Assembly (NCBI GenBank): GCA_037783415.1
Contig: JAZGTN010000002.1
Location: forward strand, 3,720,001 to 3,784,000
Length of the DNA stretch: 64,000 nt
DNA from: Leptasterias polaris
Lineage: Eukaryota; Echinodermata; Asteroidea; Forcipulatida; Asteriidae
Reading direction: 5' to 3'
Each line of letters begins with the position of its first letter. Within the stretch, counting starts at the first letter, position 1. Position numbers and translations under genes: made by a program. The notes under the pieces are model-generated. The model searched no databases. It was given only the letters and a program-made list of their open reading frames with translations, and had not been told where the DNA came from. Positions 13,301 to 40,300 of the stretch are shown in pieces.

Positions 13301-16300
13301 AGCTGCTTTTAAGCACACAAAGTAGCTCAGCATAACAAAAGTATGCTTACCAGAATAAGGTTACCAGCCAAAACACCTTGTCCCATGTACTGTCTATGAC
13401 TGGTATCCTGCTCATTTTTGCGTAGCAGAAAATTGTTAAGCAAGATTTTCTGGTATGTCTGCATCACAGCTGTGTATTGAGAGAGTTGCGACAACGTGTG
13501 ATTAGAAGCCATTTTGTGTAAAAAAAAACCTATTGGCAAATACAGGGTGCCAGACTAGTCTGCCCATTGGGTTGTGCTGTATTTGGACCATAAATGGTGT
13601 CCAGCAACCACGTAACCAAAGAAAACTGGTCCCTCTATGTCGCAACTCTCTCAATACACACCTCTAGTCTGCACAAAACAGACATCTGTTGAACTTTGAA
13701 CATTTTGATTTGTGTGTCACGTCACTGTTTTTCTTTTCTTTTTCATTTTTTTTTTTTCCAGGCCTGTCCCTACTACGCAACGAGGTCCCTAAAAGACGAC
13801 GCAGATATTATTTTCTGTCCATACAACTACCTAGTAGACCCCATAATAAGATCCACGGTAAGAGACAAATCAGAGCAATTTCATGGCTCTGCATATCGCC
13901 GAATTCTACGCTTGCGATCCTCATTCCTTGCTTACAGGGCAAGGGAAAAGTTTCTGCGGTTGCTCTGTAAAGCAAAGAATGCCTTGTATAGTGGAATACA
14001 CACGCGCACAAGCAGAAATTTCCTGCTAATCTGTGAAATACACTTGAGGTAAGCTCGGTATTCCCTGCTTGTGTAAGCGCCAATTCTTAGCTTACGATAA
14101 GCAGAGCCGTAAAATTAGGCCCAGTTAGCTTCCTTTTGTCAGCATTTAACCTTAAATTTTTTTGTTTTTTAAGGGAGTTTTTCACTATTTTTGTGTCCAA
14201 TGACTGATTGAGCTTAAAAGGAAGGTATATGCTTGGTAATTGCTCTTAAAATTAATGGCAATAAAAACTTACTTGGTTTAGAAGTACAGCAGCTTTCGAT
14301 AGTATAAAGCATTTTGAGAATCGGTTCACTTCAAAGTAATGTGGTTATGGAAAAATATATCAGTATTATCCCCCAAATTTTCAATCTGATAAATGTTTCT
14401 GCCAGATACGTTTCTCAGATTGTGTATTTTGAATAAGGAATATTCTTCCTGCGTGGACATAACTGCGCCGGATTTTCAGTGATTTCTCAAAAATGCTACC
14501 ACCATTTGAAATGGAATTTTCACGGGTTAGTTTTATTGTATATTTCTACATTTCTATAGGATTAAAACAATCAAGCGGTTCCAAAAATCAAAGGTATACA
14601 TTCCCTTTGACCAGTTTAAAATAATAATAATAATGACGTCTTCTATAGCGCCGGTATCCACGAAAGTGCTCATGGCGCTTGCTCCAATAATAAAGTTCCT
14701 CTGAGGATGTCTTCCAGTGGTGCACAAGCAAGAAAAGGTGAAAATGGGGTGCTGAATATACAGTACAGCTTCAGGATTAAAAATCTATTTGCCAATACCA
14801 ATGTGGGATAAATGTTTGGTATGTTATTGTGTTCTTTGAAGCGAACGGGTTGAGTTTTATACGATTGGTATTTCATGCATATTTTGGGTCACACAAAGTG
14901 CAGATACTGCAGGCTCGTGGTTTCTCAGAATTTGTCCTGATTTCAAGATTTTCTCAAAATCTCCTGAGCCTTCAAAATTATCTGAAAAAAAGGAAGCAGT
15001 CACAAAAGGGAGAAAGAAATAGTCCACCTTCAACTTCATTGCACCTTCATTATGGAATGACTTACCTCTTAATATTCGCCAAGCTGACTCTCTTCAGATT
15101 TTCAATGGACTTTTAAAAACTCATTTGTTTGAATCTTTATTTGTGTAACTTGCTTTTAAAATAAGATTCTTTTCAATGTTTTTTGTTTTGTTTTTGTGTT
15201 GCGCATAGAGGCTTCTGCATTATGCGCTATATAAATTTCTTGTATTTATTATTACTTTGTGTCCAAGCCTGTAGCTTGGTGTGTTTCTTGCTATGCATCA
15301 AGTCGGTGTTTTTTGAATTGTAGCATCTTTGAGGTTCTAGGTCTAGAATAAAGGGGGAACCCATAAGGGAGAATACCGCAGACCATTTTCAGGTTTGTTC
15401 ACCTTTAGCAAATCTCACCCCTGAAACTGGTCTTTTACCAGCATTGTAGCAATCAGCAACAGAGTTCAGCATTCTCCTGAAGACAGTCGGAGCATACTGA
15501 TCGAAACGTTGAGTTGTCAACCACTGGTTCTTTCAGAACCAACACTACTCACAAGAGATTTGTGCACATGGTGTCACCGCAAACTTCCTTTGATTGTACT
15601 CCCACCATGTAAAGTTCCAAATCCTACAATTACCATGCTTTAAAGTCGCCATATTGTTTGATTTCCAGATGGAAATCAACCTTAAAGGTCAGATTGTCGT
15701 GCTCGACGAGGCGCATAATATTGAGGACTCCGCTAGGGAAGCTGCCAGCTGTAGTGTGACTGGGAATCAGCTGGAAGACACAGTGAATGAGCTGGAAACT
15801 CACAGTAAGTTAATTTTCCCCAAATTTGACACCTGGGCTATGTTCGGAGTCGCTGAATAGTGCAGGGCCAATTTCATGGCTCTGCTAAACCCTCTGCGCT
15901 TGCGATCATAATTCTCCGCTTATTGTGCAAGTGCCGAATTTCTGCGGCAGCTGTGTAAGCGAAGAATGCCTAGTAACGTTCCCTGCTAACCCGTGAAATC
16001 GCTTGACGTTAGTGTGGAATTCCCTGCTTCCGTAAGCCCTGATTCTTTGCTTACGGTATTAAGCAGAGCCATGAAATTGGCCCCAGTTCTTCAGCGTTGC
16101 TGGAACAGCAAACTGCCGTAGCCATAGCTCTAGTTGCTTGATTTGGTCGCGGCTTACTCTGGCTCTTTTTGAGTTAATTGCTCTTTTCTTGTTTTGCAGT
16201 CACGAATAAGTGGAGGAAAAAGCCCTGCAAAATTCTGCACGCTGTGGTAAGTTTTTTTGGGTTCCTCCTCTCCCCACCCTGTGGATCCCACTTTGTGGTC

Positions 16301-19300
16301 CCAGCTCATTCGTATCTTTACAGGTATTACTGTCATTACTGCAAAGTATAATACATCAAATTGTCTTAGTGATATAACATGAGTGATGACACTGGGGGGG
16401 GGGGGGTTCTATTATCTTTCTAAAAACCACCGGAGAAGGGTATTAAAAATGGGGTTTTTTCTTACATTTAAAATCTGTTTACTCGCATGTGAGCTCAATT
16501 TTCTTATTGATTGAACACATTTTAAATGAATTTCAGCACAAATTACTTGTTGTTTTTGTTCAAGGTGGTCTTGAACAAAAATCATAATGAGCCAGAGCTG
16601 TTTACGTGTGTATATTCCTAGAAAGCATCATACAAAGTGAAATAAATTAAGAGATATATACAAGGGGGGGGGGGGGTGTCACAGCAGGTATCTTTTCAGC
16701 TGTTTTATTCTTCGCTAATAACAAACTTTCACATGAAGTATGACAGGGATGTGATTTCTCTGTTTTTAACCGGAAATCTTTTTTTTTTCTTAAGATCAAA
16801 TTCATTTAAAACGAATGAAGATAAAACCATATAGAATGCCCCCAGATTGCAGAGTAGTGCTTTTAAAACCAAAGATAAATGTATATTAGTGGGTTTCATC
16901 CTCGCAAGCTTTCGAGCTTTGCGCTCACAGTTCAGGGTTTTTTTTCCCAACAGCCTTTCACATCCCTGGTATGAAAAAGGTCGTGTGACTCACATTCTTT
17001 GAAACTCAGCACTGTTTTTTCCCCACATAGATGAATGCGTTGCTGACGTGGTTCAAATGTCAGTCATCAAAATTTGATAACCGAAAGGGCCGGTTGTTTG
17101 ATAGGGCGCTCAAAGTTTGGTCTGGAGTGGAGATGGTGGCCGTCCTGAAAGATTTTGGCATAGCTGAGGATACCCTTTCAACATTTATGGTAAGTCGTAA
17201 GACGGAAACATTTCTCAACCTTAAATTGTGGGCCAGCGGGACCAGGGCCAAATTTCATGACTCTGCTTACGGTAAGCACAGAATCACCGCTTACGGAAGC
17301 AGGGAATTCCGCGCTTACTTCAAGCGTATTTCACGGGTTAGCAGGGAATTTTTGCTTGTGCGCGTGAGTCCACGTTACTGGGCATTCTAACCTTACTTAG
17401 CTAGTGCAGAATGGTGATCGCAAGCGCAGAATTCGGCAGTAAGCAGAGCCATGAAATTGGGCCCAGTTTGCTTGTTGTGTGTCAATTGCCACCATCATTT
17501 TCAGTTTCCCCTCAATGTTGTCCTTTGTGTTGGATTTAACTCTATGCTTAACGTAAGCTGGTATATTCTTTTGCACGTGCGCCTTCTCAGTTTGTCCCAC
17601 AAACTACAAACTAATGTATCGGCCCGAAACGTTCACTTTACAACATGTATTTTACTTTTCGATTTCAACACATATGTTGTCCAGTGACAATTCAAAACAC
17701 AGAGGAATCTGTGAAAGGGAAAGATTTCAATTTGAAGATGCCGATATGCACAATATTTACATACAGTGGTTTACCAGGAAGCGTTAGCAAGCGATAAACT
17801 GACCAACTAGAAGATAATTCTTACCAGTTCTCTGGTAATTTTACTGCCATTTGACGGGGTAGGATTTTAAACTTTGCATGGTGGTAATACAATCTATCTA
17901 TTGAGGCTTGCAGAGACACTTTGTTCATAAAAACTATCTCTATGAGTTGTGGTTCTGAGAAGAACCAGTGGTTTGACAACTCATTTTGTTTCAGTTTCTT
18001 ACCTGGGCCCAATTTCATGGCTCTGCTTACTGTAAGCAAAGAATCGGCGCTTACGGAAGCAGGGAATTCCCCGCATACGTCAAGCGATTTCATGGGTTAG
18101 CAGGGAATTTTTGCTTGTGCGCTTGCATAGTCCACTTTACTAGGCATTCTACGCTTACACAGCTAGCGCAGAAATTTGGCGCTTGATCAGTAAGCGGAGA
18201 ATGGCGGTCGCTTGTAGCGCAGAGATTTGGCGCTTGATCAGTAAGCGGAGAATGGCGGTGGCAAGCGCAGATTTCGGCGGTAAGCAGAGCCATGAAATTG
18301 GGCACTGATGCACCACTGAGCACAAGGCTTAATATAAGCCACCCTCAGGTAGTCTTGTAATCTGCATTGGTTTTTAAATAAGTGAATAAAAGAGTGGGTG
18401 ATGAGGTATTAGACGGTCGTTTAAAACCAGCAGGGTCGTGGCTTTGCCATAAAGGATCTCACCTTCTGCTCGGTTCTTTATCGCACGGCCACGACTCTGC
18501 AAGGTTTTAAACGGACGTTTAAGACTGAGTCACCACTCTTTTATTCCCTTTCATACATACCTTCCATTAGAATCACCCAAAAACCTTTAAAAGCAAGTTC
18601 AGAACAATTCTGATAGTTTTGTCTCAGCTCGCCTTGACTCTACTTTGAACTTCCAGCCATGTTGAGCGCTGAGTACATGGCTGGAAGTTCAAAGTAGAGT
18701 CAAGGCGAGCTGAGACAAAACTATCAGAATTGTTCTTGCGTAAGTTTACCCTGTCAGTTTCCCTTGTGGTGTATAATTTGATATCTGATATAAAAAGTCG
18801 CATCCCCTTAAGGTGATCCCCTGGCTGCCGCTTCCCAGGTTGTATCGTATACTTGGGTGTGATCCCTGGCTACACTGCAGTTTACGGTTGAATGGCTTCT
18901 GACTGGCACCCCCCGAACAAAGATATTGACAAATTAGGGAGACCGCCAACATAGGGCTAGATAGCTCAGTTGGTAGAGCGCCGGCACGTTAATCCGGAGG
19001 TCGTTGGTTCAAATCCCGCTCTAGTAAATTTGTCTTTGTTCAACCCAAAATCAGTTTAGAATTTGCACGCTTAAGTTTAAAAGTATTGCATGCAAGTTTC
19101 AATCCTACTCGAGTCAAATATGCGACCGACCAACTTAAATTGTGCTTTGAAATTTGCAGGCTCCTTGCAATCATCTGATAGCGCCCTCTTTTGACTCAAT
19201 TTCCTTAGGTCATGTTTGAACACTCCGCAACATGTTTATGTCACATGTTTAAACTTGGCCACCTGCTCTCCTCTCAACCAATCAGACTGGATGAACTGTC

Positions 19301-22300
19301 GCATGTATTTATGAGTTGATTTTAAAGGTAATTGTTGTATATTTAGTTTGCGGTAACAACATGTAACATATCTACTTGCTAGGTAGATTTTGTTTCTTGA
19401 GAACTTGTCTTGCTATTTATTCTACTGCCGCGGAGTAGATTATTTGAAATTTGGGAGACTTCTTAGTTCTGAAAAGAACTGTCCTGCTTAATAACTACTT
19501 ACCTGGGTGGAAGGTAGGAAATCGGGAGGGGACAACTACTTTTGCTTAGTGGATTGAGGGGACTTCTCGTTTTTAACTTCACTGCCGCGGAGTGAGTTCT
19601 TAATTGGTCTCAGCTTTTTTACTAGTTTGCTCTAGTTATCGTCAGGAAATAGCAAGACAAGTTCTTAAAGAACAAAATCTACCTAGCAAGTAGATATACA
19701 CATGGTGTTACCGCAAACCAAATACACATTGACACCTCACCATGCGATGCCTCAAATCCCATATAAGGTAATTGTTCTTTACATTCTGCTCTTTGTTTCA
19801 TTTTTTAAAGAAAAACCTGGCGCTTCTCTTGGAAGATGCTGAACCTCAAAAGAAGGAACAGGAAGAGGGAGTCAGTTTCAGCTCCAGCAGTGGCATGACA
19901 CTCAAGAATCTCTTTGTCATCTTCGGTTTCCTATTAAAAGACAGATGCAAATTCATGAAAGACTTCAAGTAAGTATGTATGTGAGCCAGAGGGGATGGGA
20001 TGGAAAGAGTGGAAGAGTTTTTGGGGTTGGGGGCTCAAGGGTCTGTTTCTGTCCAAAGGTCTGTTTTGCATCTTGGTATTCTGATTAAAAAACTGGGTAG
20101 GAGATGCAAATATGTATGTGGCCCAGATGAGATTGGAAGGGAGATTTTGTTTGGGGTGAGGGCTAATTTGTTCACAGCATAACTCAAAAGTTAAAAGCGG
20201 GTCTTTTAATATTCAATGATGAAATTATAAGAAATTGTTATGACAATTGTTATGACAATTGTTATGACAATTGTTATGACAATTGTTTCTGTGTATGTAT
20301 ACATGCCAGGGCCCACTTTATGGGCTGCCTAAGTACAAACGGTAGCTAAGCACAACAAAATTATGCTAACCAGAGTAAGGTTACCAACCCAAATGTCATG
20401 TTACATGTAGCATTTGTGACTGGTATCCTGCTCATTTCTGCTAAGGAGAAAATTGTTAAGCAATAGTATCTGCTGAAGAAGTTCTGTGAAATTGGGCCTT
20501 GGTGGGATGGGAAGGATATAGGGGGAAAGGGAATGGATTTGGACGATTCTCACATGGCAGTAATGTTAATTGCCCAATCTCACTTGACAAAAGTTTTCAA
20601 CAATTTCACCCAAAAACATGACATCTGAAGTGCACACATTTATTTTTCTGAATTGCAGAGTGGTCATCATGAGAACTCAGACCTTTGCAAAACCAAGACA
20701 ACAGAGCACAGTAAGTAATTTTTGAGAATGTTTTTTTCATCTGTTAATAAAAAGTGGCAATCATTAGGCACTTCTCAGCTGAAGTAGTTATCATGGTCAC
20801 TGTTGTATTTTTGTGTTTGGAGCAAACACAACTCAAATTAACAGACTTCAATGTCTTCAGAATTGGGCTGCCAAGTCAATATTTTGTTCCTCTAAACATG
20901 ATCACGTAACTCCTTTTCTCAAACAACTATATTGGCTCCCGGTGAAAGAGCGAATTCGTTTTAAAATATTGGTGTATGTTTATAAATGCTTAAATGGACA
21001 TGCACCAGCATATCTTGCATCATGTTTTACTTTTTACAGTCAAACTAGGGCTGGGCTTCGCTCAGCATCAGACAAAACCCGTCTTGCTGAAAATAAACCA
21101 AGCAGCAAATCTCTCCAATCTGCTGCCTATACAAGAAAAATTATTAGCCGCTCCAGCAGTGTTGTGACCAGAAGTTTTTAAGAGCCGGTTAATTTTCACA
21201 GAGGAGCGTGCTATGCGAGGTACCGAGCGCTTGCGCGAGGCGTTCATCAGGGGTCCAAAGGGGGTGGCCCCGAAAATGTTTACATTTTACACCCTTAAAA
21301 ATACATATTTTATGGGTTCTAGACACTAACAACATACAATGTATTTTGCTGAATTAGAAGTACACATGTTGAGCCATATATCAAGTTTTTATACCCAGCC
21401 TGCTTATACCTCACAAATTCTAAAATCCTTCATATATCTGGAGCTGACAAGTGAAATGAGACGAGTGTCAAATTTAATCAAATAAAGTATTTGTTATTTA
21501 TTAAATGTAAGTTGTGTAAAATTCTTGCAACTTAATAAGGTAAGTTAGTATTAAGAAAACATAGAATGATCCAGGGATGTGATTCCTCCGGTTTTTGCCG
21601 GAAATTCTTTTTTTTAAACCAAAAAGTCGACCCGTGTGAATTGTGTAAATCCAGTGAGAAAAATGGGGACACAGATCGCGATACATTTGGTGTGCGAGCG
21701 CTGAACGCAGAAACCTTTGAAAATTGATGGACTTTTAACAAGTCTAATGTGCAGTGAGTCAAGTACCCAGTAGAAGTCAATGTGGTTTGCGCAGTTACGC
21801 ACGTACGGTCCAGACTAAAAAAAAAAATATTGGATTGTGCACTGCTCGGAGATGTGCGCTTTCTTTCTTCATACTTCCGTAAGAAAATAATTTTCTTGTC
21901 TATATCTCCCTCGTGAACACATAATGTGACAAAAATAATGAAGAAACAGTGGAGAACGATTTGTGAACAACTGGTATGGCGGAGCGGCGTGAAGCGAGGG
22001 TTCTAATGAGCGTCGTTTCTGTCGTACAATAGCGACAAGAAAAATAACACCGCCGCGTGAAAGAACGACATGTGTGCTCACAACTTGGTGAGTTAGATAA
22101 AAAATAAAACACATGCATCAAAAGGAGGAAGTCTGGCTACGTGTACTGATGTGTAACGTAGAGCTATACGTTCTACTATCGTCTGGTTCCTAGGTTTTTC
22201 TAATGTTTTACTCAAAGGATGCGGCAGCAATCAGACGCTGTGAGAATATATTTTTTTCTGCTAACATGGAAAGGGGAAACATCGCTGCATCAAACAGTCA

Positions 22301-25300
22301 ACTTGAAATAAAAATAACACAACAAGAAATGATCAATCGCGATCGTCGAGGCCAAGATTTAACAACACTTTTGATTTTGATAGTTTTCAGTTACGTAAGA
22401 AGAATTCCTTAGTTTTTAAGCTTATTTAGTAGCAAAAAGTACCGGTCGGCAATGTCGTAACATTGCTTGAGAGCCGGTCGGGAATTTTTAGAACTGGTTA
22501 GTGCCGACCAGCCCCGACCAGTGTAGTCACAACACTGCGCTCCAGGACTGTGGAACAACCTTCCCATCACCATACGCACCTCAAATTCGCTGCTCTTAAA
22601 AAAATTCTTTTTCCTTAGTTGCTTTCTGTAAATAGCTTTTTGTTCATTTGTTGTATTATTTGCATTGCTATTGTCTGTTTGCTAAAGCGCTGTGGTCTGA
22701 ATGAAATGGCGCTATGTAAGAGCCCATTGTATGTATGTATATATGTTTCAAAAGAAGATGCCACTGTTAAAGGGTGTGTACAACATTGGTAAGATTGAAA
22801 ATATAAATGCTCACAGATTTGCACATAACTCACATGGTATAAAGATGGTCATGGTGGAAAACTTCCCTTGAAATAGTTTTGCTTGAAATGCCATGGTTTT
22901 TAGGAAATGAGTAAAACAATAGTTTTTATCCTGAAGGATAAATTCCGATGTTTGAAAAAAAAGTTAAAACACATAAGTTTTTTTTTCCACTGTTTTCTCA
23001 TGACTCCGAAAGCCGATTGAGCTTAAACTTTCACAGGTTTGTTATTTCATGTATATGTTGGGTCACATCAAGTTTGAATACAGGTCTTTGGCAATTACCA
23101 ATGTTGTACACACCCTTTAAAAGGAAGCGGTCAGAGATAAACAGTAGGACAAGTTCTTATAAGAACAGATCTACGCATCAAAGTAGATTCTATCACATGG
23201 TGTTTTATACTCTTGAGTTCTGATGATGTCTACAGCAGACTAGTCAAATGTTGAGCCCAACAGTTTCACTCTGCAGCAGTGAAGATAATTTCTGTGAGTT
23301 CTCCCTATCCACTTTGTGAAAAGTTGAAATCTCCCATTTTCACTACTCCACGGTTGCAGGTTAATGGTAGGACATGTTCTCATCAGAGTTTAGTTAGTCT
23401 CCCGATTTGTCCAATCTACTTTGCAGCCTTTTTGTGCTGCTTTATAAACCTTTCAAGGGGATTTGTGAGATCATCGGTTGTTTTGTTTTTTCTTGAGAAA
23501 AAGTCTCAAAATATGATTTTCTTTCAATTAAAACCTTTCTCCCCTCTTCTTTGTGACAGGATGATCGCTGGATAACGAAAAATAAGAGAAGTAAGTTGCT
23601 CTGTTTATCGGTTAAAAAACATTTTCTCCAAACGACAAATGTATTTTCCTAAATTAGAGAAGTGGTTTTGTTTGAAATTTGTGATAATTTATTTGTGACT
23701 GAAATATCCTGCAGATGACAACAAGCAGATTGTGTTTATTAAAAAAAATTGCTTGTCTGTTCAGGAATTGTTTTAACAAGGACAGGTTCACTGAGAAATA
23801 AGTAAAGATGCTTTTGAATAAGAACAGGTTCACTGGCGAACAAATAAAGCCAGCCACCCGTTTGTCAGGATTTTGATAAAGTGGAGTCTGGAAGGTGTGC
23901 TCTGCTGAGCTTCAGGATGAAACAGATCTCATGAAGACGACTGGAGCGGCTGATTGAAACTTTCAGGCTCCACTTTATCAAAATCCGAGGAAGTAGAGAT
24001 TCAGCTCAGAACAAGTTCTGACAAGTTCTTATCAGAACCTAAGTAGTCTTCCAAATTTTCCTAATCTACACCGCGGCAGTAGACAAACGGCTGGACAGTT
24101 CTAACAAGAACAATCTACACAGCAAACTGCAAACCAAAATAAATAAAGTCAACTATTGTATGCCCAGAAAATTTAAAGGGTTTCATCTCTAGACCAAGAG
24201 GAGACCACTGCTCAGTTTTTTCAGGAAGTTTCCAGTTTCTGAAACCCACCCCACTTATTTGCATCATCTTGTTTCTTTTTCATTTTACAGCTCCGTCATG
24301 GCCCATCACTCTCAATTTCTGGTGTCTTAACCCCGCAGTTGTAAGTTTCTTTTTGTTTTGTTTTTTTCTTCTCTTTTGTTGAACAAGTGGAGTGAAAATC
24401 CAGTTTACATCAGGGCCCAAAGAGCTGTTGAAGCAGAAAATTTTGCTTGACAATTTCATGCTATGCAAAAATGTGCAGGATACCAGTCATAAGTGTTCCA
24501 CGCGTCATGGTATTTCGGCTGGTAACCATATTCTGGTCAGCAAAAATGTGCAGGATACCAGTCACAAATGGTCCACGTGTCATGGTTTTTTGGCTGGTTA
24601 CCATATTCTGGTCTGCAAAAATGAGCAGGATACCAGTCATAAACTGTCCGTGTGACATGGTATTTTGGCTGGTAACCATATTCTGGTCATTAAATTTGTG
24701 TTGTGCTTATTTACTTTTTGCGCTTATGCAGCTCCATGAAATTGGGCTCAGAACTGAGGCCTTTGAATGCTGTGGCCGTAATTTGTTACTGCTTGACCCG
24801 GAAGGCACTGAGTTTTGACCTCTTGTACTGGCGTCACTTTCGGCTACTGTCTTTCCATGGTCTGCCATTTCGAGAGTCAAATTACAAATTGCATATGAAG
24901 ATATGGTGTACCCTAAGGGCGTGCAAGTCGCCTAAAATATACATAGTACAGTTACACGCAGGGAATCTGACTACCAGATGTCTCAACCAAGTTTATCACT
25001 GGTGATGACGTCCGAGTGAATTGGACCAATACATGAAATATTAATAAGAAGACAAATATTGGAGTATATGGTGCTCAAAGAACAAAGAGAAACTTTTTTA
25101 AAGACAGGTTTTGAAGTTTATGAGTTATGAGACCTATTTATGAAGCACCTTATAAGGGTTTACAAGGTGCTGTGGTGCATTCAGCAGCCACTGCCAGACA
25201 CACCGGGCAAACCCCTTTACAATAAGTGTACCAGGTTCTTTTATGTGCATTACACAACACACTGGACCTACTGCTTTTCGTCCCATCCAAAGGACGAAGC

Positions 25301-28300
25301 AACAATGGTTAAAGTATCTTGCTAAAGGACCCTAGTGTCTAGACCGGTTCTCAAACCTACAGTCTGCTGATCAGAAACACAATAGCTTGAGTCCAGTGCG
25401 CTAGACCGCTTGGCAACGACATGCCACTAACAGTGTGTACCACATATTGGTGTGAAGGGGAAAAAAAAAATCTTTTTATTAATTGATTATTAAGAACTCG
25501 TCTTTTCTGATTTGTAGGCATTCACCGATTTCGGAGAAGAAACTCGTACCATCATTTTGACATCAGGCACTCTGTCCCCGATGGCATCCTTCCAATCGGA
25601 GCTCGGTGTTGAATTTCCCATACAGCTGGAATACAGTCACGTAGTGAATATGTCACAGGCAAGTGGTCTGTTTGTTTTTCAGGGTTTTTGTTTGTTTGGT
25701 TTTGTCTCTGGATTTATTTTGTAAAGTCTCCTTTATTGAGTTTGTTTGCCATTTGATTCTAAGTTTTATTAATTTGTAAATTGAAATTGTAATGGATTCA
25801 TTTTATTGGGTATTTGCTCCTAATTGGAAAATCCCTCTGCAATGTTCTTAGGAAGCCCAATAAAGCAAGTTTCCAGCAAGAATATATATTTTGTGTCTTT
25901 AGTTTCAGCCTGAAATGTCACTGACTACATAATCTATATCTGTACCAATCTTCCAGAGATACATTTCCGTTCAAAATATTGTCAAAGTCTCTTGGCATGT
26001 TGTGGCTGAGCGGTCAAGCACACCGGACTCAAGCTCTGGTGTTTCTGACCAGCAGTGTGGGTTCAAGTCCAGATCTTGACACTTACGCAACCCACTTCAC
26101 CGTTATTGTTTTGTCCTTCGGACGGGACATAAAGCCGTAGATCCTGTGTGTTGTGTAAGGCACGTAAAAGAACCCAGAAATGTTTTGTTGGCGGAACTAT
26201 TTCTCTTGATACTTTGTACTTGTTTGATCTTTATAATCTACAAGTTTTTAGGGTGTTTTCTCATTAACTATCCAATCTGTATTGACTCTCTAAAGATGGT
26301 CGTTGATGTTTGCCAATTTAATAAATAAACAAAAGTTCATTTTGAAATAATTGATTTAAGTATCAGATTTTTGTTTTTTTCATTTTCATTGTAAAACATC
26401 GACTTTCAAAATTTGGTCGAAGAAAACGTTAAAAACATTCTTGTCTTTCAAAGAAAAATCAGGTTAATTCTGGTAATGCAACTTGAAATGACAGGGTTAG
26501 TAATTGGATCGAGGATAAAGACCAAAAGAACTGATTGTTGCTGTAGGCTGGGTCTGAATTGGTGGCTGCGGCTGCGGCTGCTTCTAAAGGTGTTGCTAAG
26601 GGCAGCCTATGCTTCAATGCATGTTGACATGGTGATCAAGCCACAGCCGGTAAATCAGACATAGCCTCACATTATGGGATTTGAGGCATTGCATGGTGAG
26701 GTATCAATGTATCTATTTGGTTTGCGGTAACACCATTTGTGTATCTACTTGCTAGGTAGATTTTGTTCTTTGAGAACTTGCTTGCTATTTATTATACTGT
26801 CGCGGAGTAGATTATTCGGAATGCTCAGTGCACTCGGACTCCTGCGTTATTAGATCTTACTTGTTTTGATATGCCCTTCATTTTTAGGTTTGGATTGCGT
26901 CGATTGCAGAAGGACCCAACGGAGAGACCTTAAATGGCTGCTACAAAAATGCTGAGGTAGGAGAGCTGTCTAGTTCTGGCGTGTCGTGGTCGAGCGGTCA
27001 AACGCACCGGACTCAAGCTCTGGTGTTTCTGATCAGCAGAGTGTGGGTTCGAGTCAGGCTCTTGACACTTGTGTCCTTAAGCAAGACACTTAACCATTGT
27101 TGCTTCGTAATTTTGATGGGAATTAAAGCTGTGGTTCCTGTGTTTTGTGCAAGGCACGTAAAAGAACCCAGAAAAATCGTCATAAAACAAAAGGGGCATG
27201 CCCAGTCTTTTTGGCACGGTTAGGCAGCACGTTGCGCCACTATGCTTCCCTAGTGGTTTGAAGCTTTGTGTAATAATTTTTTCTTCATCAATCTTTCACC
27301 TGCTTGTTTCTCTTTGTTCAAGCGCCATGAATACCTTATATTAGTAGATACGCGCGCTAGACAAGACTCCAGTATTAAATGTATCTACAAGGTACGGAAA
27401 CAATTCTGTTTTACCCCAGCATTTTAATGGTTCTATACTTTATCATAATTTTCTGGTTTTCAACTTTCAGACGTTCAAGTTTCAGGATGAGGTTGGTTGT
27501 CTTCTCCATCAAGTGTGTCAAAAAATCCCCTTCGGAGTCTTGTGTTTCTTTCCCTCCTACGGAATGATGGATAAACTCACCAAGAGGTGGAAGGTAAGAT
27601 CCTAATTAAGAAATATTAAAGGTAAGGTCATCTCTCCCTAATAACCCTTTCAACTCGACCCTATGTAAAGTTGGTCACCAGTGACTGATACAATAAATAA
27701 AATATGAAATCGAAAAATGGCCACAATTTGTTTTTTCCAAAACCTTCTGAGATGTAAAAGGTAAATACAAATGTAAGTTTTATAAGGGTGTATAATGTTA
27801 ACCGGTTTGTGAGAAGTAAACCTGATCACATGATGCAGTGGGTTGAGGTTTAAGTCCGTTAGGGTGTCAGCCATCCCGTGGTGGTCGGAGAACTCCCTCC
27901 AAGCATCCCTGTCCAGTGCGGTCGTTGTTGGCTCATGCATTCTACTTCTTCTATGTGCACGAATGTTGTCAGTCCACCTAGCTTTCGGCCTTCCTCTGCC
28001 AGCACGACCAGCAACACGTCCTTCCATGCACTGCCTCTCAAGATTTCCGTCTCTCCTTGCAATAGACTGTGCAAGTCTCGCGCGTAATCGAACTTCCGGG
28101 ACCATAGTGGTCCTAACCATATGGAGTTTTACGTGGGCGAGATTTTGTTTCGTCAATTATTTTAGTTTAACGTAGGTTATGACCTAGAAAAGTATACATG
28201 TTGTTGGGAATGTAATACTAAGTGATAACAACATATGAAAGTAAAACCAATTCAACAATATAACGAAGAAATTCCAAGAATTAAACTTGACCTCAGCTTC

Positions 28301-31300
28301 CGGTTATTGCAAAAAATTAAGAATTTTGTGCTCGCCTCCGATCATAAAACTTACGTAAACGCTTGTTTTGGATGCGCAATTATAATCGCCAGATGCTGTA
28401 ATTGCAAAGCAAACCCTTTTCATTGCAGTCTATGGTTGTTGAGGCATCAGCATCCTCTTTAAACTGCGATACGGGTCCATTTAAGACCCGTTTGACCTTC
28501 ACGAATCCGCGTAAGGGGTTTCTAAAAAGTTAACATCAAATATGCATCCTTGTCCCAGAGTTTTAATTTTTGTTCAATAATAATATACACACTATTGTGA
28601 TTGTTTTTTCAAAAGCTAAAACTTTTCATAAAATTGTAATGATTTATTTTTGTTCTTCAGATTTTGTCATGAGATATAATTTAAAACAAAGATTTAATTT
28701 CAGAAATAAACATGTTCTTCGTTTGACGTGTTTTCTCGTTCGGATACGCGCGAGACTTGCACAGTCTATATGCCCAAATTACTCCAGCTTCTTCTTTAGC
28801 TTTTTGGGTTATGGACTTTCTCCAACACACTGATGTTAGTTGTATGGTCTTGCCATTTGATATTTAACATTTGGTCTCAAGCACCTTCCTCCTTTTGTTT
28901 TACAAACCAGGGCTCAATTTCACTAAGTGCTAAGCAAAAGGTTATGTCAAAATTCAAATTACAATGTAATTTGTTTAGTGCATCGAATTCAAGTTCTGGT
29001 GGTTAAGTCATTGGGGTGTGGGTTCAAATCCCGGTCATAATATATAATAATAATAATATCGAAGTCTTATATAGCGCACGTATCTACCAAACAAGGTACT
29101 CAAGGCGCTGAGTATATACATTACTTTCAGAAAGATAGGTTATTGCAGTGATGAAAATCTGAGACCCAATTATTTAGCACCTTATAAGGGTTTACAAGGT
29201 GCTACGGCGCATTAAGCAGCCACAACCAGGAACACCGGGGCGAACCCCTTCTCTTTTCGATAAGTGCACTGGGTTCTTTTACGTGCATTCACAACGCACG
29301 GGACCAACGGCTTTACGTCCCATCCGAAGGACGAAGCATGTGGTTAAGTGTCTTGCTTAAGGACACAAATGTCACGACTGGGACTCGAACCCACACTCTG
29401 CTGATCAGAAACACCAGAGCTTGAGTTCGGTGCTCTTAACCACTCGGCCACGACATAACACTTGTGTCCTTGAGCAAGGTATTTTACTATAATTGCTTCT
29501 CTCCACCCAGGGGTATAAATGGGTACCTGCAAGGGTAGAGGTTGATATTGTGTTTGAAAAAGCCTTCGGAGCGCCACGGCAGCCCAGGGCTGTACACTCC
29601 CCAGGGAGCTGAGAAAGATTAAAGGAATGTTATTGGCCCAATGACCAGGGCACTAATGTAAAGCGCATTGAGACGTTATTGTAAAATGCGCTATATAAGA
29701 ACTAGTTATTATTATTATTATTATTATTATCTTAGTACTTTGTGAGATTTACCGCAGGATAACAGTATTCACAAATCCTAACATTTCCCCTTGTAGAACA
29801 CGGGACTATGGGAGAAACTGATTAAGGTGAAGGTTGTGATGTCAGAGACCAGGGGAGTGGATAAAGTCAACTTTGAGCGGAATCTACGAGAATACTATGA
29901 AGTCATCGAGAACCTTGAACAAAAACTTGAACAAAAAGCCAGCTTTGGAGAGGGGGAGGTAACAGGAGCTCTGTTCTTAGCTGTGTGCAGAGGCAAAGTG
30001 AGCGAAGGCATGGACTTTGCCGATAACAATGCCAGGGCGGTCATGACGGTGAGTTGCAACTAGTATTTTTCTCTCTACTTTAAACTCTAACAGCTACTTG
30101 AGTGAACACTTTTTTAATGGGAATGCTATTTAAACTTGTTTATAGTGTGTTTGCTTATTATCTAAATGTAATTTTGATATTTGAACACCTCTGAATATTT
30201 CGTAATTATCAATCAAAAAATTAGGCTTCAACCTCAAAGATTTGAAAAACTAGAAACGTTTCTCAGATTGTGTATTCCTATTAGGGATTATTCTTCCTGT
30301 GTGGACATATTCGCTCCGGATTTTCAGCGATATCTCAAAAACACGACCATCTTTTGAAAATAAATTGTTACAGGTTAGTTTTATTGTATATTATCTACAT
30401 TCATATAGGATTGAAACAATCAAACAGTTAAAAAAAAAAAAAGGTATACTTACCCTGAAGCGCGCAAAATAAAAGGCACAGAAGCCGATTGTGCATCAAC
30501 ATCATATCTTGCATGAAAACGCTTTGAGAAAAAATATATTATTGCGGTTTCTGTAAGTTTTATGTGTACATTTGGGAAATTCTGAGCAAATACAACATTA
30601 TGAAACTTTCAAATTCGCATGTAATGAAAGTGCTTTATTTAGGAGAAGAGACACTGTTGCACTGACACGACAAACTGGGCCCAATTTCATGGCTCTGCTT
30701 ACCGCCGAATTCTGCGCTTGCGATCACCATTCTCCGCTTACCGAGTAAGCGCCGAATTTCTGCGCTAGCTGTGTAAGCGTAGAATGCCTAGTAACGTGGA
30801 CTACGCAAGTGCACAAGCAAAAATTTCCTGCTAACCCGTGAAATACGCTTGACATAAGCGCGGAATTCCCTGTTTCCGTAAGCGCCGATTCTTTGCTTAC
30901 GGTAAGCAGAGCCATGAAATTGGGCCCGGGTCTTCTGTAATTTTGTATGCTTGTTTAAAATGGATCAGTTTAAGGTGACCAAGTAAAGTATGTTTTAATG
31001 AAAGTGTCATTGTAAGAAACCTGCACTTTTTGACAGGCTACAAGTGTTTGTAAGTTTCTAACAAGCATACATGTATGCTAATCAAGCATGTGCTAATCAA
31101 GCATGTGCTAATCAAGCATATGCTAATCAAGCATATGCTAATCAAGCATATGCTAATCAAGCATATGCTAATCAAGCATATGCTAATAAGTAAATGTAGT
31201 TTGTTTCCAGGTGCCAATGAGCATTGTTTGTCAGCTTTTCAGATTGTTTTTCAGCGTTTGAGTTCCATAGGTTAGTGAAGAGGGAAATTAATACGGCTTA

Positions 31301-34300
31301 ATATTGTCTCCCTTAACACTGGCCCGCTTGCCAAATGCCAGTTAAAACACCCGAGGACCAGTCACAATTCTCTTCAAGTGGTCTGGCTGGTTAGTTGAAA
31401 TATGGACACATGGAAAGCTGGGGGACTAGTGAAATGGCAAGCTAACTGGTCCCCTGGCCAGTCACTGAGAAAGCTGGGGGACTAGTGAAATGGCAAGCTA
31501 ACTGGTCCCCTGGCCAGTCACTGAGAAAGCTGGGGGACTAGTGAAATGGCAAGCTAACTGGTCCCCTGGCCAGTCACTGAGAAAGCTGGGGGACTAGTGA
31601 AATGGCAAGCTAACTGGTCCCCTGGCCAGTCACTGAGAAAGCTGGGGGACTAGTGAAATGGCAAGCTAACTGGTCCCCTGGCCAGTCACTGAGAAAGCTG
31701 GGGGACTAGTGAAATGGCAAGCTAACTGGTCCCCTGGCCAGTCACTGAGAAAGCTGGGGGACTAGTGAAATGGCAAGCTAACTGGTCCCCTGGCCAGTCA
31801 CTGAGAAAGCTGGGGGACTAGTGAAATGGCAAGCTAACTGGTCCCCTGGCCAGTCACTGAGAAAGCTGGGGGACTAGTGAAATGGCAAGCTAACTGGTCC
31901 CCTGGCCAGTCACTGAGAAAGCTGGGGGACTAGTGAAATGGCAAGCTAACTGGTCCCCTGGCCAGTCACTGAGAAAGCTGGGGGACTAGTGAAATGGCAA
32001 GCTAACTGGTCCCCTGGCCAGTCACTGAGAAAGCTGGGGGACTAGTGAAATGGCAAGCTAACTGGTCCCCTGGCCAGTCACTGAGAAAGTTAAGTGCAAA
32101 CCCTGCTTATATCTCTCGAGAACAAGACTGGTACCGGAGAAGCTTTAGTCTCAAGTCTCTAAACGGCTTTTCATAAAATGTCCAATGTACCCCGCAGGTG
32201 GGAATCCCATATCCCAGCATCAGAGACACACAAGTGGAGCTGAAACAGCAGTACAATGACACGTACGCAACTTCTAGAGGTTTATTGACTGGCAGTGAGT
32301 GGTACGAGATCCAAGCTTACAGAGCTATCAACCAGGCTCTAGGCCGATGTATCAGACACAAGTGAGTATTTTATATTTGAGTTACTTTATATAATTGACT
32401 GGTAGTGAGTGGCACAAGACTCGAGCCTAGATGACTATCAACCAGGCCCTAGACTGATGTATCAGACACAAATGAGTAGTGTACATTTGAGTGACTGAAA
32501 ACAATGACCAATTCTCGGCTGTGAAAGGTCAATTGACAGGTACGAGATCCAAGCCTTCACATATGCAAGAGAACGAATGAGTTCTTGAGTAATTAAAGTT
32601 GAAGTTAAAGTTGTATAATTTGTTTTTACTCTTACACCGATGTGTATTAAGCACTGTATACTCAGTACTCTCCCGAGTTTTGTAGAAAAAAATCCACAGG
32701 CGTGATTCGAACCCACAACCTTTGCATCGCTAGAGTAGATGTCTCACCACTAGACCACCGAGTTTAAGTTGGTTTTTAGGGAAGGGCAATGGAGGACAGC
32801 CTTAAGAAATGCTTGCTTATTTCTTTCAGGAAAGATTGGGGTGCCTTGATACTCGCTGACCATCGCTTTTCTAAAAATCCCAAGAAGTACACACCAGGTA
32901 AGTTTAGTAAATCAAGTTTATTAAGCAGAGGGCAGTACACACCAGGTAAGTTTAGTAAATCAAGTTTATTAAGCAGAGGGCGGTACACACCAGGTAAGTT
33001 TAGTAAATCAAGTTTATTAAGCAGAGGGCGGTACACACCAGGTAAGTTTAGTAAATCAAGTTTATTAAGCAGAGGGCGGTACACACCAGGTAAGTTTAGT
33101 AAATCAAGTTTATTAAGCAGAGGGCGGTACACACCAGGTAAGTTTAGTAAATCAAGTTTATTAAGCAGAGGGCGGTAAAATGCTTTGTTGACTTTCCTGC
33201 TCAGGGGTTTCCCGCAGGTTTTTTTCACTAGACCGCATGTATTGACGCAATCGATTTTCAAAACCTAAAAAAACACCCCAAAACACGGAAGTGAAGGTCA
33301 CAAAATTGCGTTTTGGGACGATTTTATCCCTTAATTTCTGCCCTAAATTATTCTTTTTCCAGCAACAACCATTTTCATGTATTCGTGAGTGGAAGATCGG
33401 TTGTTTTGAACTTCGTTTGCAATAAAATATTTGTGAATCAACGATCGGTCGACAACGCACATTGAGAAAAACATTCAATGAACTTTGCCTTGCATCGCCC
33501 TCTATCGGCAAAGGTTGTCGATGTTTGAATAGTCTTAATCCAGGGCTGTGTACTGTACACAATCTGCAGGCGTGCGACACAATGTGGGGCAATTCTTTGC
33601 TCGGTTTGTAAACGTGTATTGCGTTGAAGTCTAGCCAAGCTCTCTTTTGAATATGGTAATTATCAACGGCCAATCACAGTGTAACGTCCGCCGATATATC
33701 AATATTACTCATAAAAACAATACTATTTTGACATCGATATCGCCGATGTCACTTTTTAATCATATCGAAATATCGACAATTTAGATATATCGAAAATGTT
33801 GATGAATAAAAAATGTTGATGTTCCTAAATGATATCGAAAACACCGACAAAGTATCATATTATCCAGAAAACCTCCGGGTTTTAGTATTAGAAAAGACGC
33901 CAATTTTATTTGCAGCTTACAACATTTGAGTAGCCTTATTAAATAAAATAGTTTGGCGACCAAGTCCGCTTGTTCCTCTGTGTTTCACCCACGGTCCGCT
34001 GCAATATATAGTTCACGATCGCTTGCGCAGTAAAATCGCAAAAGAAATCGGTCTTGCCGCCCATCCTATCAGTTGTTTGGGACGTAACCCTCCATTGATC
34101 TGATTGGTTAACATTAAATGTTGCGAGATGGCTATTCTCTCGCTGGTATCTCCAGGTGTTTTTGATTGTTTTTAAAAAGGTTGGGCGATGCGCTTGTGTG
34201 TGAGTAAGCCGAGGGGTTGAATTTGCAAAGCTACGCTGTGCTGTACCTCATTCCTAGTTCCTTATGAATATGGTACTTATCAACGGCCAATCACAGTGTG

Positions 34301-37300
34301 CGGAATTTTGGTAAGCTTGCACTTTGGACCCAGTGTTGCACTGCATTATGCATGGTTTACCGGTGAGCGACCGAATGTTGTGGGGCCCAGGCCGATGTAC
34401 GTGCATTGGAAACTCAGCAGTCAGCACCATGTGCGTCGTGTTTTAACGTTTGTATACTGAAATGAACGATCGCAGTTCTGATTGCGGCCACATAAATATC
34501 CAGACTTGTCAAACTATTTAAAAGACTTTAAAAAAAATAATCTTTGGGCTTTTACCACCATACCCTCATTTATTGTGAATTGTTTTGTTTGACTCGCCCG
34601 ACGGACTAGTTAAGGAAGGGTTGATTCGCCCACTGCTGTTTTCACTCAGTGTTTGGTGAACAGGCGACCGCTAATTTTGAACCCTGATGTATGTTGAGTC
34701 ATGACTTTGCCAACTCCTTGCGTCGGCACCCGACTCCTTATGTCAGCAACTCACAAAGGCGCTGTGTTACTTTTGGGCGGCCAATCACGAGTCGGGAATC
34801 GCGGGGATTGTCTGTGCACCCTTGCTATTTGCCAAGCCAGCGGAAGCGGCAATGGTAATCATGTCTTATCCTTTTGTTTAACCAAAAGCAAGCGGGGCGG
34901 CGGGCGTAGTTTGATACTTTTTGGACTAATAACAAGTGCGGAAGATCAATCCAAAACCGCAACCCTATTCTATTAAACTGTCGGACTTCAGTATATAAGT
35001 TGCTGTTTTTAGGCTTCATCTTACGCACGGGAAATACTCGATATATCGAGTATACTCGATATTGAATTTCCGATATATCGGTTATTGAAAAAACTGACAT
35101 CGATGGACGTTATCACAGCGTGCGGAATGTTGGTTAGCTTGGACTTTGGACCCTGCTGTGTTGTGTATGCGCTATGCATGGAGTACCAGTGGGCGACCAA
35201 ACGTTGTGTGGGGCCAGCGGTGCACACGCGGTGGATACTCAGCAGTCATCACCATGTATCGTGATTTAGCGTTTGTATACCGTAATGAACGATCGCAATT
35301 CCAATCGTGATTGCCGCCACATTAAATCTAGCAAAGATCCAGACGTGTCAAACTATTTGAAAAACTTTAATACCATTCAGTAACATTTATTTCTCATCAT
35401 GGCATGGTTCAATATAATAGATAAAGCTACACTTGTATTGAGGCCATAGACGAGAGGCAAGACCTAAAAAGCAAAAGCTTGAGTAAGGTATGCCTTTACA
35501 AAAGGACAAGACAACCATAAGGGTAACAGACACAGACAAATCCGAGGTTACATTTAAAGTAATTTAAGCAGAGGAAAACGTAAAGCGTCTAGATTAAGTA
35601 GGTTTTCAGTTTACGTTTGAATATGTTTAGAGAAGTAGAGTTTCTAAGTGACAATGGTAAGGTATTCCAGATACTTGGGCCAGAAAATTTAATGGTATGC
35701 TGGAATGCAGAAGTTCTATGGTGAGGTAAATGAACATGTAAATTAACAGACACACGTGTGTTGTAGGTATGTAAGTTACAACCAAGTATAAACATGCCTT
35801 GCATAGAAGGTGGAAACAAGCCATTCAAGTACTTATACATAAATATACATTGTTGATACTTATTAAGGTTCAAAATATTTAGAAACTTCAGGTCACGAAA
35901 AATAGAATAAGTGTGAAACCTATAAGGATGATTTGTAATAATACGAACAACCTTTTTTTGAAGAACAACAAGTTTATCTAAATTAGTACGAAAGGTATTC
36001 CCCCAAATAATATTACAATAAGACAAATATGGAAGAACCAGAGAGCAATAAAGTGTTTTAAGTATTTCCAAAGGAACAACATGTTTAAGTCTATTTATAA
36101 TCCCGATGCTTTTGGAAACTTTATTTTCAATACCAGTGATGTGATGCTTCCAGGTTAACTTTTCGTCAATAAAGACCCCTAGAAATTTATACTTGTTGAC
36201 TCTGTGTATTACTGTGTCATCAATAGCAATATTAAGGTTAGAACAGTCACATGGCTTATTCCTGTTGCAAAAAATAATATAGTTACATTTTTTTAAATTC
36301 AGGGACAAACGATTAGCTTTAAACCAGTCACAGATACTAATCAGTTCCCTATTAACTACGTCAAAGAGGGAATTAAGATGTTTATTAGTATATATAATAT
36401 TAGTGTCATCTGCATAAAGTATGAAAGACAAAAGGTCAGAAGTATTGCATATGTCATTAACATAAATAATAAAAAGTAGCGGTCCGAGTAGGGAACCCTG
36501 TGGGACGCCACAGGAGATATATTTAAAATCTGACAGACAGGAATCAAACTTGGTACATTGAGGACGGTTATTCAAATAACTTGCAAACCAGTCAAAAGCA
36601 ATACCACGAAAGCCATAATAACTTATTTTGTCTAAAAGAATGTCATGGTTAATGGTATCAAAGGCTTTCGATAGATCCAGAAAAATACCAACAGATACAA
36701 ATATTCTTTGGGATTTTTCCACCATACCTTCATTTATTGTGAAAAGGAACAAATATTTGACTAGTAAAGGAAGGGTTTTGACTCACCTGCCGCTGTTTTC
36801 ACTGGTATTTGGCGACCGGGCAACCGCTAATTTCAAAACCTGCTGCTAAGCAAAGAGTACCTAAGAACTTTTCCCAATTCTGAGAAGAAAAAAAACTGCT
36901 GCAATGAAAATTTGCCTTAATGCAGAAACTAATTTTATACACCTAGATGCAGAGAAGCCAATTAAGGTAACGCTGTCTTGCATAAGGACCACACGGGCAG
37001 TGACTGTCATTCTGCTGACGGTGCCACTAGATTGTGAATCTTGTGTGGTCGACTGCTGGACTGGAACACTCCAAGACTTGTGAATGTTTTTAAAATTTGT
37101 ATTTCCAGTAGTTTGCACGATTGGAAGGATTGATCAAAAGTTATTTGTAAAAGTTTAATTGTGTGACTTTTTTATGCATCTTTAGGACTGTCTAAATGGG
37201 TGAGAAATAACTTGAATCATCACACGTCTTCGAAGACGGCCTTAACATCTTTGGAGGAATTTGCCAAAGAAAGACAAAGGAAGAAATATTCACGTCTCCC

Positions 37301-40300
37301 AAGGTAACATTACAAAAAAAATTAAAAGTGAAGACAATTTTAAATTTCTGTTCGAGGTTGTGTAATAATATATTAAGTTGGCATTTATTTTGAGTGGAAC
37401 TTTGTGAGATGCCGCTTTTGTCATAACTGTGCTCTAATAAATTCTGAAATTGTTTGTTTTGGTCCTGCAGTACTCCAATTTGTCCGAAACCATCTCCGAA
37501 ACCATCTCCAATTTGTGCGAAACCATCTCCAGGGCCACTTACTCAATTTATTCACAGTTTGATGTCCCCTCTATCTTCCCCTGTGCCAGGAGAACCCGTT
37601 GCTGTACCAAGTGCTCGGCCCATGGTCAAGTATGCTCGTACACGGAAAGGCGAAACTCCTGGTTTACCTTCTGTACCCCTACCTTCCGTGCCCATACAGC
37701 CCAGGAATCTTGTCCCTCTTTTACCCAAACTTAAACCTTCTCAGAAGAGTTCCACTTCTCAGGAGAGTTCCTTTAATCCGTACTCCCTGGGTCCCAACAA
37801 AGAACTGATAATCAGTATGAACCCTTCTCAGAAGAATTCCATTTCTTCGTACTCCCTGGGTCCCAACAAAGAACTTATAATCACGATGGACCCTTCTCAG
37901 AAGAATTCCAATTCTCCGTACTCCGCGGGTCCCAACAAAGAACTTACAATCAAGATGAACCCTGAACAGAAGAATTCTATTTCTACGTACTCCCTGGGTC
38001 CCAACAAAGAACTAGTAATCAAGATGAACCCTCAACAAGGCCAACCTGGGAATGTGGTTGCCCCAGCCATGGGGCAGCAAGCGACACCGGTAACAACAAC
38101 CCCAATGAAGTTCTTCATGAATGTACCCAACACCTCAAACACAGCACCGTTGACTTTGGTCTCGGGTCCTTCTCCAGTTCTAGCAAACAGTAGTGCGACC
38201 GGGTTTGGACAAGCAGTGCAGTCACCAATGCTGGCTTCCAACCAGCAAGTGATGCCAGGGTGTTTGTACGCACTTGGTCCCAAGAATAAGCTCATACCTG
38301 TGCTTCCAGGCACGTCGATGGGAAGTCCTGCCCAATTGGTTTCAAATAGTTCTAACAATACACTCGGGAACCTCACTAACCCAGAACTTGCGCCTACCCA
38401 ACCAACCTCCTCAAAGTTTGTTATGGTTGCACCCAAACCTTCAAACGTGGCTCCCAATACTTCAAACGTGGCTCCAGCAATCTTGGCATCAGGTCAACCT
38501 GGAGTGCCAAGTCAGACGCCTTCCGTAGCAGCCAAGAATTCCCTTAAGCAGGCCAGTCCCAACAATGAATCGACAGTCAAGAGCAACTCCGCAGCAGGCG
38601 ATTCCAGCAAAGTGGTTGTACCCAGAATTCAGGGGACTAAGGTTCTGAGGGTGGTAAAGGTTGCACCGAAAATTAAGGGGACTGCGATTGACACACCTGT
38701 CGCCCTGCAAAAGGCTCCAGGGGTTGGTTGGTTCTCCACAATTACTCCCGACTCCCATAAAAGGGTCAATTGTAAAGTGACGTTAAAGAAGGTTGAGGGG
38801 CTAAACACCCATGGTAATGTGGTATTCAATACGCCAAGAGAAAAAATTAATTTTGACGCGACTCCAAGCAGAGGTCCAGTCAGAACAAAAAGCGCAAAAG
38901 GTGTTTGTTGTCCGATCATTGACCTAACAGATGAGGGGCCAACCAAGGACAGTGCCAAGGGACAGGGAAACGACAATCCAACAACAACACCACAGCCTGG
39001 AGATGAACAGACTATCCTGAACAAGCAGATTATCCGAGCGGAGCATGACTACACCCCGCCGCTCTTCGATTCAGACATCGTCGACGCCAACACAACCACC
39101 ACTCACACTGACCACAGTGACGATACCAGCCCTGCGAAAACCACAGATCGCCGAGAGGACGGCGGCAGCAAGAAAGATCTGATGAAGTCGGCAAAATTAT
39201 CAAGACAGTTGAAGAAGAGCGGCGGAGTTTACTTTGCTGATGAAACTATCCCGAAAAGATACATGGTAAGATTAAATCAGTAATAGATTTACATTAGGGA
39301 TAAAGATTGTTTGATTTCATTTCATTTATTAATTCTGGTTGTGAAGACCAGGATTCTCAGAAAAAAAAACTGGCTTCCACTTCCCAGGTTGTATCGTAAA
39401 CTTGGGTGTGGTCCCTGGCCACATGGCAGTTAATGGTTGTAAGGCTTCTGACTGGCACCCCCGAATAAAGATATTGACAAAATAGGGAGACCGCCAATAT
39501 AGGGCTGGATAGCTCAATTGGTGGAGCGCTGAAATGTTTATCTGGAGGTCGTTGGTTCAAATCCTGCTTTAGTCAACTTTTCTTTGTTCAACCCCAAATC
39601 ATTAAAAATTTATCCAGTCAGTTTCCGTTGTGGTTTATTATTTGATAAATGCAAACTTAATCACTGTACTAGCCAAGAACCCCATGGAGAGAAGACAAGG
39701 AAGTTTCAGTTTTAGATGTGGGAGGAAAACCCCCAAGAGAATTCCTTGGAAAACAAACGCAGGGACTGAAAACCCAATCCATATAGTGCCCCCGGGTGAT
39801 TTGAACCCGGGGTCCTAGAATTAATAAATACTGTAAAATAAAATAAATTCATTAATGTACAGTCTGACCATTTAATATCGTTCACTGTGGTTTTGAGTGA
39901 TAGATAAACTGTGCCAGCCTGCAATATGATTGATATCATGTAGTGAATGCATACTACACAGTACACAGTCAACCCTCCTACTTTCTGACCATTCAATATC
40001 ATCCACTGTAATTTTGAGTGATAACAAATGCAAGCCTGCAATTTGATATGTAGTGAATGCATCTACACAGTACACAGTCAAACCTCCTACTTTCTGACCA
40101 TTCAATATCATCCACTGTGTTTTTGAGTGGTAGATAAACTATGCCAGCCTGCAATATGATATCATGTGGTGAACGCATACGCAGTATTATAAGTAAAATT
40201 ATTATTTTTAGTAGTAGTAAATTGTAGTTTGATCTGTGGACAGTTGCGCTACCAGACACTTGAGACTTGCGCTGTTTTGTTGTATGGTTTCAAAGGGTTG

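Follow-up and report, generated by a model that had tools for sequence, protein, structure and literature searches.

A 48-bp minisatellite repeats the 5' splice site of a FANCJ/BRIP1 exon six times in the sea star Leptasterias polaris

The minisatellite of the human gene IFI6 (6-16, G1P3) reportedly provides multiple splice donors, an observation said to go back to Turri, Cuin and Porter in 1995. Its unit of 12 bp, present in about 26 copies, is stop-free and of a length that keeps the reading frame, and the 130-residue form of the protein is the one made from the most upstream donor. Tandem duplication of AGGT has reportedly been put forward as a model of intron gain by Rogers in 1989 and by Hellsten in 2011. 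At the ratchet points of recursive splicing, AG is juxtaposed to GTAAGT, and a pyrimidine tract precedes the AG|GT. According to a report on IFI6, two downstream repeat units act as donors, giving three mRNAs, and mainly the 130-residue form is made (PMC4526556). Three other papers describe an intron gain in fission yeast in which a 24-bp unit with AG|GT occurs in several copies (PMC4974935), the unc-73(az100) allele of C. elegans, which has a duplicated donor doublet and splices mostly from its upstream copy (PMC8865678), and the promotion by SRSF1 of the intron-proximal of two competing donors (PMC5585400).

We analyzed a window of 64,000 nucleotides of the L. polaris genome, in which an exon of the FANCJ/BRIP1 gene ends in such an array. 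As in IFI6, a minisatellite-size array overlaps the real donor of a coding exon, its repeat units supply candidate extra donors to that one exon, the donor consensus is present in every unit (6/6), and the unit keeps the frame and is stop-free. Unlike in IFI6, there are six units of 48 bp with 9/9 consensus, each step would add 16 residues, and the gene and the phylum are unrelated. Tandem copies with AG|GT at both ends of the unit also recall the AGGT duplication of Schizosaccharomyces (SPOG_01682/SOCG_00815); there an exonic segment became an intron, whereas the unit of L. polaris straddles an existing donor, so that the duplicated segment is not purely exonic. Compared with ratchet points, the juxtaposed AG|GTAAGT is present and the pyrimidine tract is absent. 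The array shares with unc-73(az100) a donor region copied downstream of itself; both copies are used in the worm allele, which differs in having two engineered copies 18 nt apart with unusual /G/UU sites (PMC8865678). A literature search found no paper joining this gene, this animal group, and this feature.

The FANCJ exon and its repeated donor

The gene had been named BRIP1 in a preliminary description of this DNA, and the homology data bear out that assignment. Similarity to FANCJ spans the XPD-type helicase motifs; exon 29797–30060 is similar to the Fanconi anemia group J protein of PDB entry 9ej9, and the joined exons around the array match the same entry with an E-value of 5.4e-44 (phmmer). 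The nearest proteins come from two sea stars and are both FANCJ homologues: within the helicase core, that of Asterias amurensis is 84.6% identical over 299 residues and that of Acanthaster planci 73.0% over 300 residues. Exons were placed from 1257 to 37277 by tblastn, with human FANCJ fragments as the query. The features of the locus, all on the + strand and numbered by window position, are the following.

32830..32897, + strand: FANCJ/BRIP1 exon of 68 bp, placed by tblastn, with acceptor TTTCTTTCAG, donor CAG/GTAAGT, and a match to 9ej9
32887..33174, + strand: six 48-bp tandem units (TRF, unit comparison)
32895..32903, + strand: donor 1, CAG/GTAAGT, canonical (U1 duplex of −12.1 kcal/mol)
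32902..32926, + strand: predicted RNA hairpin of 11 bp with a 3-nt loop, starting at donor position +5, in every unit
32943..32951, + strand: candidate donor 2, adding 16 aa (motif match, U1 energy, joined frame)
32991..32999, + strand: candidate donor 3, adding 32 aa (same evidence as for donor 2)
33039..33047, + strand: candidate donor 4, adding 48 aa (same evidence)
33087..33095, + strand: candidate donor 5, adding 64 aa (same evidence)
33135..33143, + strand: candidate donor 6, adding 80 aa (same evidence)
32898..37185, + strand: intron after donor 1, 4288 bp, containing the array and a presumed antisense reverse-transcriptase-like ORF
37186..37303, + strand: next FANCJ exon, with acceptor CTTTAG/GACTG common to all six joins (tblastn, joined frame)

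The 68-bp exon encodes 22 residues and the first base of a glycine codon, directly after motif VI. Its 3' border lies in the array, whose six units are followed by an extra GTA and differ at a single base over their 288 bp: unit 1 ends in A, and the other five end in G. TRF gave the array as 32887–33177, with a period of 48, 6.1 copies, and 99% matches. One unit consists of 11 nt of exon end and 37 nt of intron start, the donor GTAAGT included; only 10 exonic bases had been counted before. The donor CAG|GTAAGT agrees with the consensus at 9/9 positions in all six units and stands in the identical phase in each. The first intron bases (32898, 32946, 32994, 33042, 33090, and 33138) are those of the preliminary description, whose claim of six exact 48-bp repeats, each with a full donor, is confirmed. 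The recent amplification that it proposed fits the single mismatch. In the 64-kb window, the + strand has six occurrences of the motif CAGGTAAGT, all within the array, and the − strand has one, with an expectation of 0.28 per strand under an order-1 Markov model. The repeat itself is certainly beyond chance.

The modelled frame of eight exons (25518–39283) stayed free of internal stops whichever of the six donors was connected to the acceptor at 37186, in agreement with the earlier view of units that share one phase and contain no stop. These joins add 0, 16, 32, 48, 64, or 80 residues, corresponding to 0–5 copies of a repeat made up of 11 residues and [Q/R]YTPG. If the array is read through continuously, a stop comes after the last unit, as had been noted. 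The insertion site had been correctly located behind YTPG; the sequence across the junction had been given as YTPG followed by GLSKWVR and has to be read as YTPG-LSKWVR, in which the intron interrupts a single G codon.

Several other features of the gene were recorded. A GC donor, CAG|GCAAGT, closes a FANCJ exon at 25658. The last modelled FANCJ exon contains an in-frame coding repeat of 69 bp (23 residues) in about four copies (37737–38032, SLGPNKEL type), and its GPNKEL motif was absent from the best 120 of 4541 homologues. The − strand of the intron that holds the array carries an ORF of 397 residues (35589–36782), which we take, by eye, to be of the reverse-transcriptase-like family.

Predicted donor strength and RNA structure

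Predicted pairing with the 5' end of U1 was −12.1 kcal/mol for each of the six array donors and from −5.4 to −9.5 kcal/mol for 13 other donors of the gene, among them two (1377 and 15804) that were placed solely by the ends of the homology. Because the energy is equal at all six, donor 1 is not favored by sequence alone. Ranking of the 2403 GT sites on the + strand between 1301 and 39300 by this energy placed the nine best in two arrays, namely the six donors described here and three units of a 79-bp array at 11597–12070. The − strand of the whole window served as a control: 12 sites reached −10 kcal/mol or better, none of them in an array, and four of these reached −12.2 kcal/mol or better, which is stronger than the array donors. 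Strong U1 matches are therefore not rare in 64 kb. Six evenly spaced donors on a real exon border are the product of duplication.

The 79-bp minisatellite has six copies and begins 12 nt past the donor at 11584. Three of its units carry ATG|GTGAGTGT (11716, 11795, and 11953) with a predicted U1 pairing of −11.1 kcal/mol, compared to −5.4 kcal/mol for the weaker real donor at 11584, ACT|GTAAGTTT. With this second array, nature provides a test of whether splicing ignores strong decoy donors.

The hairpin is predicted in all units of the 48-bp array and is also present in the centroid of the array fold. The segment 32898–32935 folds with −7.4 kcal/mol, whereas its shuffled versions averaged −1.54 kcal/mol (z = −4.41), and 2 of 1000 shuffles were as stable. 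For the minimum free energy of the whole array, z was −4.95 with none of 100 shuffles as stable, a value inflated by the loss of periodicity on shuffling, so that the single-unit test is preferred. In the RNA, the predicted hairpin could mask bases +5 and +6 of every donor; alternatively, it could favor slippage at the DNA level. Predicted accessibility of positions −3 to +6 was tried as a donor ranking and rejected, as it did not separate the array donors (0.000–0.003) from the 13 others (0.000–0.17).

Reading frame, placement, and protein context

From the shared phase and the absence of stops, the preliminary description had proposed that the array could generate a length-variable isoform series. 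Outside the arrays, 20265 of 45054 random 48-mers were open in one frame; multiplied by 1/3 for a period in frame, this gives a chance of about 0.15 for an in-frame period with an open unit. Array periods divisible by three were found in 9 of the 27 arrays of the window. With these values, a unit that is in frame and stop-free is weak evidence of function; the earlier interpretation is supported in part, and an isoform series may exist. The array set was non-redundant, had periods of at least 12, was kept apart from five regions of very short period or homopolymer, and covered 5018 bp (7.8% of the window). Placed at random, 1.10 of the 14 listed donors would fall inside arrays, and two were observed (P = 0.68 for one or more donors and 0.30 for two or more; the test covered exons modelled outside 15804–24281). 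The next 37 intron bases were stop-free at 7 of 13 tested donors. The open frame and the placement on a donor are not beyond chance.

The second donor inside an array is that of the preceding exon, which lies in a 110-bp duplication of 1.9 copies (32284–32496, 82% matches). This duplication copied the exon end together with its donor. In the copy, two stops interrupt the frame, and GTGAGT has become ATGAGT at 32472, which is what neutral decay gives. No sign of selection for frame was found in the chance of open 48-mers, the donor placement, the stop-free intron starts, or the array periods. Elsewhere in the window, a 56-bp array of 12.1 copies with 100% matches (31413–32089) stops 109 bp before the acceptor at 32198. 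A 22-bp array of 9.1 copies (1471–1671), also with 100% matches, lies in the intron that follows an exon with its end near 1377.

The protein context of the insert point was surveyed in the best 120 of 4541 hits, mostly predicted gene models, and the motif VI pattern was found in 119 of them (all except P0015). Among these 119 FANCJ-like proteins, GRCIRH and LSKW were separated by 30 residues in 109 and by 29 in eight; the remaining two read LSKWM and have a spacing of 30 by eye. None of the 119 (best of 4541), Asterias amurensis included, had an insert after motif VI, which likewise speaks against the open frame as a sign of function, and the peptides KFSKSS, SSLLSR, LLSRG, and YTPGK occurred in none of the best 120 of 4541 homologues. 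The survey of 119 proteins says little on minor isoforms. Of 8000 candidates scored against the array peptide (P0001), none reached E ≤ 0.001. In the predicted model of a sea-urchin homologue (P0007; pLDDT of 76 for the block and a model mean of 69.9), the insert point corresponds to the loop 903–907 between helices, and the Rad3/XPD alignment has a 4-residue gap at the same place, so a change of length there may be tolerable.

Origin of the array and choice among its donors

In all likelihood the array arose by recent repeat expansion, of a type for which a human gene already gives an example, and a passenger role is more probable than that of a selected device. On balance, we favor as probable a young minisatellite that was duplicated over the exon/intron border and tolerated via its open frame, with donor 1 as the main donor and the later donors giving minor products longer by multiples of 16 residues. 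A segment of 48 bp spanning the 3' end of the FANCJ exon and its donor would have been duplicated in tandem and then amplified to six units. The single-copy ends share GTA (exon AAGTACACACC, intron GGGCGGTAAAATG), which suggests an origin by short homology or slippage. As every copy kept the full donor, the transcript presents six identical 5' splice sites at intervals of 48 nt. By chance, presumably, the unit has a length of 16 codons and is stop-free in the frame of the exon, and the array may have been tolerated because wrongly chosen donors would leave the protein untruncated. Donor 1 probably serves most of the mRNA, as expected from the precedents of unc-73(az100) and IFI6, and the next donors would be in minor use, each adding 16 residues in the loop after motif VI. 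Protein versions differing by 16-residue steps may thus be formed. The predicted hairpin at +5 hints at some structure beyond a plain passenger.

Identical downstream donors could nevertheless win over donor 1, since SRSF1 favors the intron-proximal donor of a competing pair (PMC5585400). In this case as many as 80 residues, basic in character, would be inserted behind motif VI in the main FANCJ isoform, at a point where, judging from the loop of the P0007 model and the 4-residue gap of Rad3/XPD, they may be tolerable. However, none of the 119 FANCJ-like proteins (best of 4541) has such an insert, and the duplicated-donor allele of C. elegans preferred the upstream copy (PMC8865678); we regard dominance of the proximal donors as unlikely. 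Still less probable, in our estimation, is a ladder of isoforms set by copy number, with full-strength donors, each partly masked by the hairpin of its own unit, chosen stochastically by U1, and the repeat number of the allele determining the share of FANCJ with 16-residue basic inserts after motif VI. If it were true, repair-helicase activity would differ among individuals through minisatellite length alone. The downstream donors might also be unused for splicing and form a U1 cluster that shields the 4.3-kb intron from early polyadenylation, or a decoy. The stronger U1 pairing of the six sites (−12.1 kcal/mol against −5.4 to −9.5 kcal/mol at the 13 other donors) would suit such a role, as would the polyadenylation hexamers on the sense strand within the intron, with raw counts of six for AATAAA and four for ATTAAA. 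Yet the − strand, where the gene has no donors, also has strong U1 matches, four of them stronger than the array donors, and the match alone proves little; we find a U1 cluster or decoy very improbable.

An assembly error in the copy number, by collapse or false expansion, could be suspected from the near identity of the units and their total of 291 bp. Against it stand the one unit-specific base, the unique flanks on both sides, and the assembly of other perfect arrays in the same window (56 bp × 12.1); we consider such an error quite improbable, and a true count of a single unit unlikely. Finally, all units begin with GT and end with AG ahead of GTAAGT (GTAAGT...CACACCAG|GTAAGT), so each could be viewed as a tiny intron, a recursive splice step, or an intron in the making, and the fission yeast paper describes tandem AGGT duplications that made introns (PMC4974935). 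The pyrimidine content, however, is 0.35 before the five internal AGs and 0.47 before the first, compared to 0.59–0.94 at 12 real acceptors (13 were listed, and 24281 was dropped as having no AG). A unit of this kind would have no usable 3' splice site, and the differences from the AGGT duplication extend to its composition of 11 exonic and 37 intronic bases. Introns in animals are also usually much longer than 48 nt. Recursive splicing and intron gain were rejected because the units have no pyrimidine tracts, and we hold this reading to be extremely improbable.

The kind of arrangement is already known from IFI6; particular to L. polaris are the larger units, the perfect donors, and the hairpin in each. 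If several donors are used, the locus would offer a natural experiment on spliceosomal choice among six identical, evenly spaced 5' splice sites, with the length of the product directly readable in this gene. It would then add an independent case of the IFI6 arrangement among animals and reveal how minisatellites on exon borders are tolerated in a repeat-rich genome. If donor 1 alone is used, the locus would demonstrate that splicing can pass over five perfect donors lying a short way downstream.
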